This document shows, in pieces, positions 4,752 through 28,620 of a DNA stretch of 36,546 bases. Origin of the DNA: an uncultured Bacillota bacterium. Lineage in GTDB: Bacteria > Bacillota > Clostridia > Christensenellales > Borkfalkiaceae. Position 1 is the stretch's first letter. Each line of letters starts with the position of its first letter. The stretch covers positions 1-36,546 of the forward strand of contig CASEHS010000014.1 in NCBI GenBank assembly GCA_949287815.1, read 5' to 3'. The position numbers and the translations under genes are program-made. The notes under the pieces are model-generated. The model was given only the letters and a program-made list of their open reading frames with translations, had not been told where the DNA came from and did not search any database.

Positions 4752-5531
4752 TTAAAATATATATAAAAATTCATTTGCAAAAAGAAATGCCGCCAATATC
4801 AAAAGGTATACTCCAAACCCCATAAATCCGCCTTTTTTTGCAAGTGCAGAGACCCAACGCACTGCGATCAAACCGAATATTACAGAAAAGCCCATACCTA
4901 CGGCAAGCGCCTGCCATGATATTTCACTCACATATCCCTCATAAGCAAAAACTTTGAAAATTTCCACCAGCAACGCTCCGCCGATCACGGGTATACTCAT
5001 CAAAAACGAAAAATCCACAGCTTCTTCCTTTTCCATTCCTGTAAAAACACAAGCCGTAAGAGTTGTCCCGCTTCTGGATAATCCGGGCAGCACTGCCACT
5101 GCCTGTGCAAGACCCACTGCCGTTGCACGCTTTGCATTAAGCGGTTTAATCGGATACGTTTTTTTCAGCCTTGCGGAAAGGAAGAACAGTAAAATAGCCG
5201 TCAATGCAAAAAACAACCACAAAAAATCTCCGCCGAAAAAGATCCTGTCTATCGCGTCACCAAAGGCTATTCCGACTACACCAGCCGGAATCGTTGCCAG
5301 TATGAGATACCAAAATTTTTTTCTTTCCTGTTTGAACAGGTTACATATTTTCGAAAAATATAATACAACCACTGCTATCAATGTTCCTGCATGCAACATG
5401 ATACCCAAAAACATGCCTGTTTCTATTTTGAAAATTCGTTCAAACAACAGAATATGCCCACTCGAAGAAACCGGCAGAAACTCGGTAAGACCTTGTACTA
5501 TTCCTAAAATGGCCGCCTGCCATACCTGCAT
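4752..5531 (-). CDS. uppP: Undecaprenyl-diphosphatase UppP (BacA)
   Basis: Integral-membrane phosphatase that converts undecaprenyl diphosphate to the monophosphate, recycling the lipid carrier for peptidoglycan and other wall polymers; overproduction gives bacitracin resistance in many bacteria. The 259-residue protein has both family signatures: EFLPVSSSGH with the catalytic Glu and Ser near residue 20, and LPGLSRSG with the essential Arg near the middle. About seven to eight hydrophobic segments follow the BacA pattern. The ATG at 5531 follows AGGGAGGG. It appears to be a single-gene unit, divergent from the esterase lipoprotein. Confidence 0.95.
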   Translation of the reverse strand: MQVWQAAILGIVQGLTEFLPVSSSGHILLFERIFKIETGMFLGIMLHAGTLIAVVVLYFSKICNLFKQERKKFWYLILATIPAGVVGIAFGDAIDRIFFGGDFLWLFFALTAILLFFLSARLKKTYPIKPLNAKRATAVGLAQAVAVLPGLSRSGTTLTACVFTGMEKEEAVDFSFLMSIPVIGGALLVEIFKVFAYEGYVSEISWQALAVGMGFSVIFGLIAVRWVSALAKKGGFMGFGVYLLILAAFLFANEFLYIF

Positions 5532-5648
5532 TTTTATACCCTCCCTTTACTCCCTATTAATATATTCGATATCTGCAAATTTTATGGCTGTTTATTTTAG
5601 TTCTAAGAAATGCAATTAATTCTTCTATACGTTTACAATTATGATCAA

Positions 5649-5664
5649 GTTACAAATATGTAAC
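5649..5664. promoter_or_regulatory. Inverted repeat between uppP and the esterase gene
   Basis: GTTACA-AATA-TGTAAC has two perfect 6-bp arms. It lies in the ~200-bp divergent region, about 75 bp before the esterase ATG, where only a weak TTGACG -35-like element is seen downstream. An operator is possible but the binding protein is unknown. Nothing else stands out in 5532-5739. Confidence 0.35.
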
Positions 5665-5739
5665 CACTATCTACAAATAGAGATTGATTGACGCAACTTG
5701 AAATGTTAAACTTAGTCTGAAAATATTTGGGAGGTTTAT

Positions 5740-8151
5740 ATGAAAAAGTTAAAAAATATTGTTTTTTCTTTTTTTCTTGCAATAGTTTTTATCTTTTCTG
5801 CTTGCAATGCCACGGAAAAAAATAACAACGATTCTTTTACTTTACAGATTAATAACGGAGATCTGAAACTGTCTGTTCCTCAAACGTATCAGATCGAGGC
5901 GTCTGTTACAAATTTGGAGAATGCGAAAATCCGTTATATCACTTCCTCTGCAAAAATCGCTTCCGTAAATTATGAGGGACTGATCGCTGCAAACGCTGAG
6001 GGCAGCGCTACCATTACCGTCACAGCAGAAACCCCGAACGGAATGCAAGAAAAAAAATTTAAAGTCAATGTAATTGACGAACGAATCAAAATTTCTTTTG
6101 ATACCGACAAAATATCAGTAAAACAAAACGGTACTACCATAGCCGACGGGCAATACCTTAATTCTTCCGAACCGCTGTCCATTTCTGTAAATGTTCCTCT
6201 AAACCAGACCATCCAGAAACTTTCAGTTACACAAGGAGAAGAAGAAATACAGACCTCACAAATTTCCGAAAACGAATTTTCATTTACCCCGAAAACCAAA
6301 GGAGCAATTAATATAAGCGTTTCCTTTGTTGAAGATAACCGTCTCGCTACTCTAAGCGGCAAAGTTATCCCCGCCACTTTCAGCGTAAACGGAGTATCCG
6401 TTCCCCTATATGATGACATTTTCATAAGTCAAAGCACAATTACTCTGACGGACAGCAACGGAATTTCCTCAAATATTGAACTCTCCCCCGAAGGCTCTTT
6501 CAGTCTGCAACTTCCTAAAGGAAATTATTCTCTTCGAACTGTTTATGAGAATAACGTATTTGAAAAAGATTTCACCCTATATGCAAATCAACAGTATGAC
6601 ATCACTGCGCAGTTATCCACGGCATACCTAGGCGGATATGTAACGTATGCGGGATCGACTCACAAAAGTTATAATAATGCTGACAGAAACGCAACTTCCG
6701 GCCAGGCTTGGTCACTGATCGACGGATACAGAAATCAGGCTGAAATCACAAATTACACATACCTTTTCCAAGATGAAGCAGTTGGCTTATCCTATTATCT
6801 GGAAGGATGTTTTGATACTGCTAATTCCGTTTTGGGCGGACAGCTCGGTGACAGCGCGGGCGGACTTCTGATCTCTCACGGTCCCGACGACCTTGCCGAT
6901 TCAGGCGGACAAAAATATAAAGTTATTGCGGGAATTTACGAAAAATGGCTCGTTCTTACCTTTACAGGAACAGGTTGGGATTCCTATGATTATCGAGCTA
7001 TTGCAAATCTTTCCGAACTCATCAGCGACACCGAAAATGTAAAACTCGGTGTTCTGAGAGAAGGCACTGAATATTTCTTTTTTGTAAACGACCAATATGT
7101 AACAAGATACTCCTACCCGACCATTACAACGGAAAGCGCATTTGGTCTTGCGAACACAACAACACGGCAGACAATAAAAAACTTTAATTATACCACAGAC
7201 CCTGCAAAACTGGCGCAAATAAAATCAGCAATTCCCGCAACAGACCTTGCTCAACAGCGGAATATTGATATCTACATCATTGCTGGCCAATCTAACGGCA
7301 CCGGATATTCTTTCTTCGATGCAAGCACTCTGAAAACAACTCAGCCGGACCTTTATTACGGGTTTGATCACGTATATTATGCCGGAAATTCCCGTTCTTC
7401 CGATTATTCCGTCAGCTCTTTACCTGCCATTCAAAGAGAAATACCGATAATGATCGCAAGACTTGGATTTGGCCGAACGAGCCAACATTTCGGTGTGGAA
7501 GCAGGTGCTGCAAAAGTTTTATCCTCTTACTATAACAACGAAACAGGCAAATATGCAGGATTTATCAAATATGCAGCTGGAGGCACTTCCCTCACAAACA
7601 GTTTAAGCGGAGAAAATGCAAGCGAAGGAAACTGGGTATCCCCCTCTTATGAAAATACCTTATCTAATGCGACCGAAAAAACAGGCGGTCTTTACAGAAA
7701 CCTTCTTGCACAAACAGAAAAACGTATCGCTGAATACAAGTTGCTTGGTTTCAAAGTAAATATAAAAGGTCTGTTCTGGATGCAGGGAGAAAATGATATC
7801 GGGCAAGAAAGTGAATACAAAAAAGCCTTTACGTTTTTTGCTCAGGACATCAGAAAAGATCTCGGTGAAACTTCAGGCGAAGACCTTACCGAGATGCCTA
7901 TTTTCATCGGAGAAATTTCCGAAACATTTTCAAGCTACAACAATATATCCGCAAATAGAAATTTTATTGCTATGCAGAATGAACTTGCATCCCTGATAGA
8001 CAATGTTTACATTGTAAAGTCTTCCGTTTTCAATATCAACGGACCTTCCGGCGTACTCGGCACCGATCAGTGTCACTGGAATTCCACCGATATGATTGCA
8101 ATAGGTCAATTACTCGGAGAAAAAATCCTTTCTGTTTGCGTAGAAAAGTAA
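5740..8151 (+). CDS. Lipoprotein with Ig-like repeat and sialate-O-acetylesterase-type domain
   Basis: An 803-residue secreted lipoprotein. A signal peptide with lipobox FSAC puts the lipidated Cys at 22. Residues ~35-110 form a bacterial Ig-like (Big_2) domain, recognisable by the SSAKIASVNYEGLIAANAEG phrase. Further beta-sandwich modules follow, including a carboxypeptidase-regulatory-like segment (~205-295) and a concanavalin-like region (~300-490). From ~505 comes an SGNH esterase of the sialate 9-O-acetylesterase/acetylxylan esterase type (PF03629-like): nucleophile block IIAGQSNG, the middle block FWMQGENDIGQ, and a C-terminal DQCHW supplying the Asp/His pair. It probably removes acetyl groups from glycans (mucin or plant) at the cell surface. 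A GGGAGG site precedes the ATG and a strong terminator follows, so it is monocistronic. Exact substrate unknown. Confidence 0.85.
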   Translation: MKKLKNIVFSFFLAIVFIFSACNATEKNNNDSFTLQINNGDLKLSVPQTYQIEASVTNLENAKIRYITSSAKIASVNYEGLIAANAEGSATITVTAETPNGMQEKKFKVNVIDERIKISFDTDKISVKQNGTTIADGQYLNSSEPLSISVNVPLNQTIQKLSVTQGEEEIQTSQISENEFSFTPKTKGAINISVSFVEDNRLATLSGKVIPATFSVNGVSVPLYDDIFISQSTITLTDSNGISSNIELSPEGSFSLQLPKGNYSLRTVYENNVFEKDFTLYANQQYDITAQLSTAYLGGYVTYAGSTHKSYNNADRNATSGQAWSLIDGYRNQAEITNYTYLFQDEAVGLSYYLEGCFDTANSVLGGQLGDSAGGLLISHGPDDLADSGGQKYKVIAGIYEKWLVLTFTGTGWDSYDYRAIANLSELISDTENVKLGVLREGTEYFFFVNDQYVTRYSYPTITTESAFGLANTTTRQTIKNFNYTTDPAKLAQIKSAIPATDLAQQRNIDIYIIAGQSNGTGYSFFDASTLKTTQPDLYYGFDHVYYAGNSRSSDYSVSSLPAIQREIPIMIARLGFGRTSQHFGVEAGAAKVLSSYYNNETGKYAGFIKYAAGGTSLTNSLSGENASEGNWVSPSYENTLSNATEKTGGLYRNLLAQTEKRIAEYKLLGFKVNIKGLFWMQGENDIGQESEYKKAFTFFAQDIRKDLGETSGEDLTEMPIFIGEISETFSSYNNISANRNFIAMQNELASLIDNVYIVKSSVFNINGPSGVLGTDQCHWNSTDMIAIGQLLGEKILSVCVEK

Positions 8152-25678: not shown

Positions 25679-25730
25679 ACTTTTCCTAAACACTCTGCAT
25701 TCATAAATCGATTTACTTTACAGTCAATCA

Positions 25731-25770
25731 AAGAGGAGCGGCGCCATTGAATGGCGCCGCTCCTCTTTTC
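25731..25770. terminator. Bidirectional terminator after the araC-type gene
   Basis: AAGAGGAGCGGCGCCATT pairs with AATGGCGCCGCTCCTCTT; TTTTCG follows on the plus strand. It also faces the TrpR-like gene coming from the right. Confidence 0.85.
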
Positions 25771-26150: not shown

Positions 26151-27026
26151 TCAAAAATTATCTTCCGTTGATTTTTTGAGAAATGCACGCGTCTTTTCGC
26201 TCCGGGGATTTTCGAAGATCTGTTCAGGCGTACCCTCTTCCTCAATATGCCCGTCCGCAATGAAAATCACATGATCCGCAACATTTCTTGCAAAATCCAT
26301 TTCATGCGTGACAACGATCATCGTGCTGTCCGAAGATTTGAGCCCTTTAATCACTTTAAGGACTTCTCCTGTAAGCTCAGGATCGAGCGCGCTGGTCGGT
26401 TCGTCAAAACAGAGTATATCCGGATTCAGCGCCAAAGCACGGGCGATCGCTACGCGCTGTTGCTGTCCACCCGAAAGCTGATAGGGATAGGAATCTTTTT
26501 TCTCTGAAAGCCCTACCCTTGAAAGCAATGAAAGAGTTTTTTCTGCAATTCGTTCTTTCTGACCGTTTTTATAATCAGCAAGTTTCGCTTTGATCTCTTT
26601 TTTCATTTCCGCCTTCTTCTCAGACGGAACATTTTTCAGTTGTGCTGCGTATTCCGCTTTTATCCGCTTTAATTCCCGTTTTGCAAGCAATTTTTGCGCA
26701 AGAACTATGTTTCCGTAAACGGTATATTGCGGAAAAAGATTGAACGACTGAAAAACAAGCCCGAAATGCAGACGCTTTTCACGTACACTCTTTTCTTTAT
26801 TCTGCTTTTTATCCGCGGCGTCAAAAAGCACTTCCCCGTCAAGCAATAATTTCCCTTCATCCGCGCGTTCCAGAAAATTCAGACAGCGCAAAAGCGTCGT
26901 TTTGCCACCGCCCGAAGATCCTATGATCGCCAGAACCTGTCCCTTTTCAAGGGAAAAGGAAATGCCTTTCAACACTTCATTATCGCCGAATTTCTTTTTA
27001 TAATCTACAACTTCGAGAAACGACAT
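26151..27026 (-). CDS. Polar amino acid ABC transporter ATPase with internal insertion
   Basis: ATP-binding subunit of a polar-amino-acid (GlnQ/HisP-type) importer. Walker A GSSGGGKT is at ~36-43, the Q-loop Gln at 93, the LSGGQQQR signature at ~184-191, Walker B ILCFDEP at ~204-210 and the switch histidine in VVTHEMDFA. At 291 residues it is ~45-50 longer than usual. The excess is a lysine- and glutamate-rich, coiled-coil-like insert at about 113-160, in the helical subdomain between the Q-loop and the signature, where it could contact the permease or a partner. It sits 3 bp after the permease gene. Confidence 0.92.
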   Translation of the reverse strand: MSFLEVVDYKKKFGDNEVLKGISFSLEKGQVLAIIGSSGGGKTTLLRCLNFLERADEGKLLLDGEVLFDAADKKQNKEKSVREKRLHFGLVFQSFNLFPQYTVYGNIVLAQKLLAKRELKRIKAEYAAQLKNVPSEKKAEMKKEIKAKLADYKNGQKERIAEKTLSLLSRVGLSEKKDSYPYQLSGGQQQRVAIARALALNPDILCFDEPTSALDPELTGEVLKVIKGLKSSDSTMIVVTHEMDFARNVADHVIFIADGHIEEEGTPEQIFENPRSEKTRAFLKKSTEDNF

Positions 27027-27029
27027 AAC

Positions 27030-27683
27030 TTAAATCCTGAAATAATTGAGTTTCTTTTCTAAAAGCCCGAAAAGAATTGTGAGTACCCCCACAAAAATGA
27101 GGAAAAATACGCCTGCACCGAGCAAAGGATAAATGAGCGGAACAGCATATGTGCCCGTCACTTCCTTTGCGGCGGCAATGATCTCAACGATACCACCGAG
27201 CGTATTTGCCAAAGAAGTATCTTTCACGAGCGTGATAACTTCGTTGGAAATAGGTGCAAGAATACGCTTTACTACCTGTAACAATACTACGCGGAAAAAA
27301 ACCTGTACACGATTCATTCCGAGCACCTGTCCTGCTTCGTATTGACCTTTGGATATGCTCTCTATCCCGCCGCGATAAATGACCGAAAAATAGCAGGCAT
27401 AATTGATGACGAAAGCGATCGTCGCCGCCAAAAAAGAATCCCTCATTGCATTGAGACCGAAAAGGCTCGGACCATAGCAAACGATAAACAACTGCAACAT
27501 TAGCGGTGTTCCGCGGATCACCCACACAATCACCTGAAATAACAATTTCAGCGGGTAAAATTTAGACATCGTGCACAGCGCGATCAAAAGTCCGAGCGGA
27601 AGAGAAAAAATAAGCGTCAACCCGAACAATTCAAGTGTGATCAAGAACCCTTCCGCTAATTGCTCAAAAATACCGACAAACAT
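27030..27683 (-). CDS. Amino acid ABC transporter permease (HisM/GlnP type)
   Basis: A 217-residue permease with five hydrophobic helices and the cytoplasmic EAA loop (QYEAGQVLGMNRVQVFF) that docks the ATPase. It is a single gene, so the channel should be a homodimer. I start it at ATG 27683, 8 bp after GGAG; the frame to 27725 overlaps the end of the binding-protein gene. Spacing is 13 bp to the binding protein and 3 bp to the ATPase. Polar amino acids are the usual substrates of this family. Confidence 0.92.
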   Translation of the reverse strand: MFVGIFEQLAEGFLITLELFGLTLIFSLPLGLLIALCTMSKFYPLKLLFQVIVWVIRGTPLMLQLFIVCYGPSLFGLNAMRDSFLAATIAFVINYACYFSVIYRGGIESISKGQYEAGQVLGMNRVQVFFRVVLLQVVKRILAPISNEVITLVKDTSLANTLGGIVEIIAAAKEVTGTYAVPLIYPLLGAGVFFLIFVGVLTILFGLLEKKLNYFRI

Positions 27684-27696
27684 TATATTGCTCCGC

Positions 27697-28542
27697 TTAT
27701 GCTTCGTTATATGCCATAGGCGCAAATACCGTATAGCCGAGAACTATTTTCCCTGAATCTTTTATTTCTTTATAATCCCCATCAGTCGGGAAAACATAGT
27801 TTTCATCGTACTTGCCGAATCCATTAAGAATTACATCCTGCAAACCGTACTTTGTCGCAATTTCTTTGATCGTACCGTCTTCCCAAAGTCCTGCAAGAAC
27901 ATGATTGAGCACTTCGTCAAAGTTGCTGTTTTTGCGGCAACCGATCGCATAATACTCCGAACTTACCGCATCGCCAAGATCTACAACAGCAAGAGAATTA
28001 TGATAACCGCCTTTTTCAGAGGTTATATAATAACCCGCCATTGTACTGTCAACTACACCCACATCGCTTGCACCCGTACTCACCTCTGTAAACACCATAA
28101 GCTGAGAATCAACCGACTTATTCTCTTTTTTAAGAACTTCCTGAATTACAGTTTCTCCTGCGGAAGTCCTTTCTGCTGTAAATACGGAAGCGGTTTTCAG
28201 GCTTTCAAGATCGGTATATTTGGACGCATCCTTTTTCTGTACAATCGCAACCTGCTTGTTTTCCATGTAATATCCCGTGAAATCGATATTTTCTGCACGA
28301 TCTTCCGAATAAGTAAATCCGTTCCAAATTGTATCGATCAGCTTTGTAGAAAGTTCCGTTTCCTTTGCTTCCCAGGAAATCTTACGACATTCCAATTTTA
28401 AATCAAGTTTTTCTGCTACTGCCTGCGCAAGTTCGATATCAAAACCGATCAATTTTTTATCTTTTTTATCGCAAGCCGTAAACATCATAACGCCGCCCAC
28501 ACCGAGCACCAGCGCAAAAATAAGTGCCAAAATCTTTTTCAT
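27697..28542 (-). CDS. Amino-acid ABC substrate-binding lipoprotein, apparently circularly permuted
   Basis: A 281-residue SBP_bac_3-type lipoprotein. The start at 28542 follows AAAGGAG and gives a signal peptide with lipobox FTAC (Cys24). The mature chain then begins at KKLIGFDIELAQAVAEKL (~30-47), which in ordinary homologues follows strand 1. Next come the expected core phrases: KISWEAKETEL, IWNGFTYSEDR with the carboxylate-binding Arg, GASDVGVVDSTMAGYY, and WEDGTIKEIATKYGL, which normally ends the protein. Here a linker follows and then YKEIKDSGKIVLGYTVFAPMAYNE, the normal N-terminal strand 1. The two ends complement exactly, with nothing missing or repeated, so this is a natural circular permutation. 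Operon: permease 13 bp on, then ATPase and TrpR-like gene. Confidence 0.88.
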   Translation of the reverse strand: MKKILALIFALVLGVGGVMMFTACDKKDKKLIGFDIELAQAVAEKLDLKLECRKISWEAKETELSTKLIDTIWNGFTYSEDRAENIDFTGYYMENKQVAIVQKKDASKYTDLESLKTASVFTAERTSAGETVIQEVLKKENKSVDSQLMVFTEVSTGASDVGVVDSTMAGYYITSEKGGYHNSLAVVDLGDAVSSEYYAIGCRKNSNFDEVLNHVLAGLWEDGTIKEIATKYGLQDVILNGFGKYDENYVFPTDGDYKEIKDSGKIVLGYTVFAPMAYNEA

Positions 28543-28591
28543 ACATTTCTCCTTTCTTGCCGCATTCATTGCAGCCAAACTTACGCGTCAT

Positions 28592-28620
28592 ATTATACTT
28601 TATTGCGCTAAATTAGTAAA
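28592..28620 (-). promoter_or_regulatory. Promoter of the amino-acid ABC operon
   Basis: Reverse strand TTTACT, 17-nt spacer, perfect TATAAT, about 50 bp before the ATG at 28542. Confidence 0.65.

Follow-up and report, generated by a model that had tools for sequence, protein, structure and literature searches.

Circular permutation of an amino-acid-binding lipoprotein from a Borkfalkiaceae bacterium: one of at least four forms that appear to have arisen repeatedly in the SBP_bac_3 family

Introduction

The gene at positions 27697..28542 (minus strand) raises the question whether a substrate-binding protein (SBP) of the SBP_bac_3 family can carry its first strand at the C-terminus. The window analyzed here is the whole stretch of 36,546 nucleotides on contig CASEHS010000014.1 of an uncultured Bacillota bacterium (GenBank assembly GCA_949287815.1). 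A preliminary description of the sequence had proposed that the gene is an apparently functional lipoprotein gene in which the order of the fold is circularly permuted. We analyzed the gene, its relatives and their operons, and conclude that it very probably encodes the circularly permuted substrate-binding lipoprotein of a polar-amino-acid ABC importer. It belongs to a set of four or more permuted forms, which appear to have arisen repeatedly. Its ligand, lipidation, expression and transport function are inferred.

Results and discussion

The lipoprotein gene and its operon

The gene was identified as a permuted SBP_bac_3 lipoprotein gene of 281 amino acids (type A, see below) by its open reading frame, the Pfam match and its full-length relatives. 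The reading frame and the signal peptide claimed before are both present in the sequence. The signal peptide ends at the lipobox Cys24 (residues 1-24, 28471..28542, minus strand), which is invariant in 9/9 proteins of the genus with this order, and a ribosome site AAAGGAGA was read 5 nt 5' of the ATG (28548..28555, minus strand). The gene had also been credited with its own promoter. A promoter-like site TTTACT-17-TATAAT is indeed found at 28592..28620 on the minus strand, but it is only a motif match, and such matches are not commoner in the window than in shuffled sequences (7 observed, 5.8 in shuffles, sd 2.6). Rfam and tRNA scans of the window gave no match.

The SBP gene is the first of an operon with the order SBP-permease-ATPase-Trp-repressor-like, all on the minus strand. 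An ABC permease gene (BPD_transp_1, 27030..27683) is followed by an ABC ATPase gene (26151..27026), both assigned by Pfam, and by a fourth gene encoding a Trp-repressor-like protein (PF01371, 25849..26154), which is kept in relatives. The distance of 13 bp between SBP and permease given in the preliminary description is correct, with the SBP stop codon at 27697-27699 and the permease ATG at 27681-27683. A perfect 19-bp inverted repeat (25730..25768, no strand), terminator-like in sequence, is located 3' of the operon. In the genus, permease and ATPase genes lie 3' of the SBP gene in 9/9 genomes with this SBP order, the window's included, and the Trp-repressor-like gene was found in 8/9 of these operons; the ninth contig stops before it.

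Segment order of the window protein

The window protein matches the Pfam profile PF00497 (SBP_bac_3) with 86.3 bits (cut-off 26.4). The match covers profile positions 16-130 of 132 and begins at position 16, which means that strand 1 is absent from the front of the protein. As described before, LIGFDIELAQAV is found at residue 31, after the lipobox Cys24, and the strand-1 phrase DSGKIVLGYTVFAPMAYNEA stands directly before the stop codon. For a comparison of the complete order, five segment HMMs were used: S1 represents strand 1, S2 the part that starts with helix 1 and ends with the first hinge strand, S3 and S4 lobe 2, and S5 the part from the return hinge to the last helix. The window protein shows the order S2-S3-S4-S5-S1 and does not meet the canonical order, in which S1 forms the mature N-terminus. 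Segment S2 (helix 1, the remainder of lobe 1 and the first hinge strand; residues 31-101, 28240..28452, minus strand like all following segments) opens the folded chain, while its normal place is after strand 1. It is followed by S3 (residues 103-135, 28138..28236), S4 (residues 143-174, 28021..28116) and S5 (residues 195-235, 27838..27960), which is internal here and the chain end in canonical proteins. According to sequence comparison, a joint linker (residues 236-255, 27778..27837) leads from the canonical end to the canonical start, and S1, consisting of strand 1 and the preceding helix (residues 256-278, 27709..27777), is C-terminal. An S5-S1 joint of comparable kind is also present in the other permuted types.

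S1 is a short segment and all types had contributed to the HMMs, so the S1 profile was rebuilt from canonical proteins alone. This profile matches residues 260-278 of the window protein with 22.9 bits, whereas the top score among 2100 shuffled permuted proteins was 6.1 bits. The canonical-only profile and the shuffles thus ruled out that the tail resembles strand 1 by chance.

Predicted structure

The mature chain was modelled by AF2 with seven rows, in which the distant relatives L196 and L197 were included as translated stretches without strand 1. The best model reached a pLDDT of 89.1 and a pTM of 0.84. Among the five models three were good (89.1, 84.6 and 83.6) and two poor (48.1 and 41.2); with the four close rows only, the pLDDT was 33.7. 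The chain of the best model ends with a helix (residues 232-240) and a strand (residues 242-247, corresponding to 265-270 of the precursor). Among the 50 Foldseek matches listed for the model were type II amino-acid-binding proteins and their relatives, with E values down to 1e-14 (2pvu, E 1e-14, TM by target 0.59). Among these listed matches, the target TM values were 0.76 to 1ggg_A and 0.79 to 8vi8_A, the highest, and many were near 0.6. A two-lobed type II fold is therefore predicted for the window protein. Foldseek aligns in sequence order, so that a moved strand cannot be credited in these values. The structure prediction that had been proposed as a check thus yielded a confident model in which the C-terminal tail forms a strand; that this segment fills the strand-1 place in the sheet of lobe 1 is inferred.

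Relatives in the genus and constraint on the displaced strand

SBP matches were obtained in 33/40 genomes of the genus. In nine of the 40, including the genome of the window, the match extends from residue 1 to the end (279-281), and each of these genomes has one SBP match. The eight other full-length relatives are 54-80% identical to the window protein, and three of the nine type A genomes are also represented by GenBank MAG contigs (L031-L033). In all nine proteins, GYTxFAPMAY, invariant apart from x, forms the C-terminus together with two or three further residues. The genomes G004, G025 and G032 contain a canonical SBP in a similar operon, with 41-43% identity in the region that can be compared. 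Both orders thus occur in one operon of a single genus, either by rotation of the SBP within the genus or by its replacement. The signal peptides of permuted (L005-L009) and several canonical SBPs of the genus (e.g., L012 and L019) look very similar. Judged by this likeness, it looks as if the signal peptide was kept or reused during rotation of the SBP body.

According to the alignment, R82, D165 and F273, the latter located in strand 1, are invariant in the nine proteins. By analogy with GlnBP structures, R82 and D165 would be the Arg and Asp which hold the backbone of the ligand amino acid. The pN/pS within the genus (36 pairs) was 0.222 for the displaced strand-1 segment and 0.293 for the core. 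Since synonymous sites are near saturation, these values are useful only for comparing tail and core. By this comparison, constraint on the C-terminal tail is at least as strong as on the core. Relatives, the canonical-only strand-1 profile, the constrained tail and the tail strand of the AF2 model support the earlier placement of the break in the turn between strand 1 and helix 1, without loss or duplication of a segment.

Can the unusual order be explained without a functional permuted protein, or without a permuted monomer? An assembly or binning error, in which mis-joining placed the start of a canonical gene behind its end, would be conceivable for a genome of 94 contigs that is 89.8% complete. 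However, full-length genes with this order in nine genomes at 54-80% identity to the window, three of them also present as GenBank MAG contigs, the matching operon around the gene and the recurrence of other permuted types over several families leave practically no room for it. The homologue search suggested in the preliminary description thus excludes an assembly rearrangement, and the artefact was rejected. More thought is required by a degenerate or truncated gene, which lost strand 1 from the front and keeps the C-terminal phrase as a remnant of a second copy without any role. The Pfam match lacks the first 15 positions, and permutation by duplication passes through such a state. A remnant is nevertheless very improbable in view of the lower pN/pS of the tail, the invariance of GYTxFAPMAY (apart from x) in all nine proteins, the presence of only this one SBP match in each of the nine genomes and the formation of a strand by the tail in the AF2 model. 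A truncated tandem pair, named before as a possible refutation, found no support and was rejected, as no doubled segments occur in the 151 ORFs described below save one double match of S3. The protein could also be functional as a domain-swapped dimer, with strand 1 exchanged between two molecules. The joint linker is long (about 20 residues), the end of the tail is free and none of the present results bears on the oligomeric state. We consider such a dimer improbable, although not excluded, as the best AF2 model predicts the monomer with high confidence and SBPs of this family with a lipid anchor generally work as monomers. A single-domain permuted protein remains the preferred reading; that the window gene is functional is inferred and not shown.

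Five cyclic orders of the segments

The five segment HMMs were run on all ORFs obtained, and ORFs with identical last 60 residues were merged, which gave 151 ORFs. All five segments were placed in 141 of the 151 ORFs. The canonical order S1-S2-S3-S4-S5 was found in 36 of them, type A (S2-S3-S4-S5-S1) in 39, type B (S4-S5-S1-S2-S3) in 42, type C (S5-S1-S2-S3-S4) in 16 and type D (S3-S4-S5-S1-S2) in eight, one of which has a double S3 match. All five cyclic orders, out of 120 possible orders, are present among the 141 ORFs, and no non-cyclic order was found in them. The ten ORFs with four segments placed show the same orders with one segment missing. The canonical-only S1 profile found strand 1 at the expected place in 103/105 permuted proteins, and 99/105 exceeded the best of 2100 shuffles. 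Curated NCBIfam profiles were tried on one B and one D protein and matched each in two stretches.

All five-segment ORFs end with a stop codon. A lipobox-like motif is present in 38/39 A, 41/42 B, 15/16 C, 8/8 D and 32/36 canonical proteins. The permuted proteins are single domains of about 260-330 amino acids. Judged by segment order, SBP_bac_3 has at least four permuted forms, and the window protein represents one of them.

Two groups deviate from the common picture. L193 (G346:C77, 12820-15831, minus strand) contains a tandem array of three adjacent B-like SBP ORFs 5' of one permease and ATPase; two ORFs have the full B order and one S4-S5-S2-S3, and at least two are divergent. L123 and L125 of family f61 and L164 of family f15 form a divergent type C group (f61 and f15 49% identical), which is close to ordinary amino-acid-binding proteins (AncQR, E 1e-39). 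For this group a separate origin of type C seems likely.

Distribution of the permuted forms and their operons

A profile of the nine genus proteins was searched against 398 genomes of the family and matched 155. The search yielded six more full-length matches in other genera as well as ORFs matched as two pieces in reversed order, which turned out on reading to be two further permutations. A joint probe of 82 positions, consisting of the last helix, the linker and strand 1, matched 86/396 genomes of the order and 59/391 of the class (E 1e-8), and 3/398 of the phylum, including the window's own (E 1e-10). The joint probe is covered completely (start at 1 or 2, end at 80 or later of 82) by 61 loci of the order sample, and all 61 are permuted: 27 of type A, 22 of type B, four each of types C and D, and four C-like. 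Four or five segments were placed in 57 of these loci and three in the remaining four; the C-like loci L160-L163 show only S5-S2-S4. The 21 class loci read that cover at least 74 probe positions comprise 11 of type C, four of type B, four of type D and two with one segment missing, and 8/8 partial-probe class loci that were read are canonical. From the 25 order genomes with a partial match only G752 was read, which is canonical; from the class search, G974 and the second match of G775, both covering the whole probe, as well as 28 partial matches stayed outside the counts. The two other phylum loci are of type D. Since the samples were chosen by profile and joint, the counts are not frequencies. 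Almost all surveyed genomes are fragmented assemblies. In total, permuted ORFs were found in loci of 110 genomes, 43 genera and 19 families.

A permease gene on the same strand is located less than 1.2 kb downstream of the SBP gene in 39/39 A, 42/42 B, 9/9 D and 18/19 C loci, the remaining C locus being cut off. The D count excludes L106, a contig-cut ORF with the order S4-S5-S1-S2 (probably type B). For canonical SBPs the permease was found in 34/38 cases; three have no match and one is cut off. The gap between SBP and permease is below 200 bp for A, C, D and canonical loci and exceeds 300 bp in two B loci only. An ATPase gene follows downstream in 39 A, 41 B, 16 C, 9 D and 34 canonical loci. 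The Trp-repressor-like gene was seen 3' of the ATPase gene in operons of A, B and canonical SBPs alike; it may be a pointer to ligand or regulation. At L177 the canonical SBP gene and its permease gene are separated by a gene (5284-6351) whose product, judged by eye, is similar to iron-containing alcohol/glycerol dehydrogenases.

Outside the class, L194 and L195 (f163, same phylum) are of type D and by eye resemble L119 of f58. Whether this likeness reflects long-distance transfer or a wider ancestry is undecided. A scan of viral contigs yielded the relatives L196, which is canonical, and L197, an IMG/VR contig whose SBP (1360-2268) reads as type C; whether this contig is viral or host DNA is undecided. 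Further scans of viral contigs revealed no relatives, save two matches without a visible SBP.

Evolutionary history

For phylogenetic analysis, 145 SBP sequences were rotated to a common order. Six ORFs (L026, L027, L106, one of L068 and two of L169) were omitted because they are cut, divergent or incomplete, and L120 was assigned to type D by eye. The resulting tree requires 19 changes of type, in contrast to 81.7 in shuffles. Its branches with support of at least 95 force at least two changes for A, two for B, four for C, four for D and five for canonical proteins. A reduced tree of 113 rows, which leaves out 32 of the 145 (long branches and near copies), requires 14 changes, and a separate permease tree of 135 rows 21. 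In AU tests a single clade was rejected for all permuted proteins (p 5e-73) as well as for A (2.5e-4), B (0.0074) and D (5e-48), with no value obtained for C. As these are quick trees with many weak forks, the number of events is approximate.

Several unlike pairs are very close after rotation. The closest is canonical L128 and type D L120 (80.5% identity), followed by A (L039) and B (L066) with 77.3% and canonical L126 and type D L119 with 74.2%. In the SBP tree, a canonical and a D protein form sisters at two different positions, each with support 100. The permease tree shows the same, as canonical L177 pairs with L176 (D) with support 100 and canonical L175 with L174 (D) with support 92 (L176, L177, L174 and L175 are larger stretches around L120, L128, L119 and L126, respectively). 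The type A proteins of g12 are nested inside type B in both trees, with support 83 in the permease tree. The agreement of both trees on unlike pairs means that operons with related permeases hold differently rotated SBPs. On the strength of these sequence trees, the ends of the SBP appear to have moved again and again in evolution.

This has to be weighed against the possibility that each permuted form arose once long ago, and that the patchy pattern is due to horizontal transfer of operons and tree error. Operons do move, as families can share close SBPs of one type (e.g., L065 in f1 and L078 in f6). The weak forks of both trees, the absence of an AU result for C and the fact that the well-supported branches of the larger SBP tree alone force only two changes for A and two for B leave this explanation some weight. 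Nevertheless, it is unlikely, since a single clade is ruled out by AU tests for types A, B and D, the canonical-D sister pairs stand at two places with agreeing permeases, type A of g12 lies within B, and the movement of an intact gene cannot alter its rotation. A more specific proposal within repeated permutation, for and against which we see about equal chances, is that the SBP of one kind of operon was rotated in place many times, each time at one of a small, recurring set of joints and including direct conversion of B to A. The anchor would thereby have shifted from lobe 1 (canonical and A) to lobe 2 (B, C and D) and in places back, caused either by an operon that favours duplication and trimming or by selection on relocation of the anchor.

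Comparison with known systems

The window protein is similar to canonical SBP_bac_3 (PF00497) proteins of type II / cluster F (GlnBP, ArtJ, 3hv1) in family, predicted fold, lipobox and operon with permease and ATPase. It differs from them by the order S2-S3-S4-S5-S1, the C-terminal strand 1 and the anchor at the turn between strand 1 and helix 1. Another rearranged order within the type II fold is known from the glycine-betaine binding proteins OpuAC and ProX, which form a different SBP family and in which large parts are exchanged and not one strand. Among the PDB chains matched by A, C and D proteins, no best-aligned stretch pointed to a permuted single domain in the best 60 of 70, 117 and 83, respectively, nor in 48/48 chains matched by a B protein.

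TpMglB-2 (Tp0684) of Treponema pallidum is a published example of an anchored substrate-binding protein of an ABC transporter that is circularly permuted in nature (PMC4990184). It has relatives in other treponemes and in Gram-positive bacteria, and ligand binding and conformational change were measured. Its authors proposed the designation 'type Ic / cluster Bc' and considered that anchoring might be the reason (PMC4990184). The window protein, whose anchor is inferred from the lipobox, shares with TpMglB-2 the natural circular permutation of an anchored SBP. However, TpMglB-2 has a type I sugar-binding fold in which three strands of the N-lobe are moved, whereas only one strand is moved in the window protein, and the available part of its description covers one rotation, compared to several forms in one family here. 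The window protein does not meet the type I sugar-binding fold, as it matched only PF00497 and the listed fold matches are type II.

A joint comparable to that of the permuted proteins, leading from the end of one domain over a linker to strand 1 of the next, occurs in the tandem SBPs GlnPQ SBD1-SBD2 (6h30) and BvgS (4q0c). A B protein aligns across the 4q0c joint and a D protein across the 6h30 joint. GlnPQ and BvgS contain two full domains, in contrast to the single domains of the permuted proteins, and illustrate the kind of ancestor needed by a duplication route. A literature search limited to open-licence papers found no natural permutation in SBP_bac_3, in agreement with the preliminary description. 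Natural permutation of an SBP is already known from the type I protein TpMglB-2, and the permutation of SBP_bac_3 is new as far as we found and of unusual breadth.

Possible mechanism and significance

The chain of the window protein leads, according to the segment order, from the linker of the lipid anchor into helix 1, through lobe 1 and lobe 2 and to the canonical last helix. From there a linker of about 20 residues would reach strand 1, which as the last element is predicted to be a strand and would close the sheet of lobe 1. With this arrangement, the conserved F273 of strand 1 is the ninth residue from the C-terminus, its function being inferred. Ligand binding, closure and docking on the permease encoded in the operon would proceed as in the canonical protein. 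The anchor of the window protein would be fixed at the turn between strand 1 and helix 1. Lobes were assigned to the anchors on the basis of GlnBP topology; by position, the anchor would be on lobe 1 in type A and on lobe 2 in types B, C and D.

The permuted forms appear to have arisen repeatedly beside related permeases. Most likely, as we infer, the SBP body was duplicated in tandem and in frame, after which both copies lost their ends under a signal peptide. Duplication and trimming is the usual model of circular permutation. The joint of L119 (type D) begins like a canonical C-terminal end (..VQEALVEQ, compared to ..VQDAVVAQ in L126) and continues with a canonical-type linker and strand 1, without a signal peptide in between. 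A linker pattern near NPxAxATDxSW is found in some A (L038 and L042), many B and some C proteins (L071-L073), and the linker of the window's own group differs from it. The L119 joint and the common linker pattern fit an in-frame tandem duplication with subsequent trimming at new places. The ORFs read included no tandem or redundant intermediate.

Linear-profile annotation conceals the permutation, since a part of the protein seems to be missing or split. Circular permutation is usually a rare single event in a protein family and is known from scattered structures. The SBP_bac_3 proteins analyzed here provide every rotation of five segments, repeated origins and close unlike pairs (up to 80.5% identity), together with an unrotated permease as partner gene for an independent tree. 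This combination makes open questions on permutation testable, namely how permutations originate in nature, which loops tolerate new ends and whether the anchoring point affects docking on an ABC importer.
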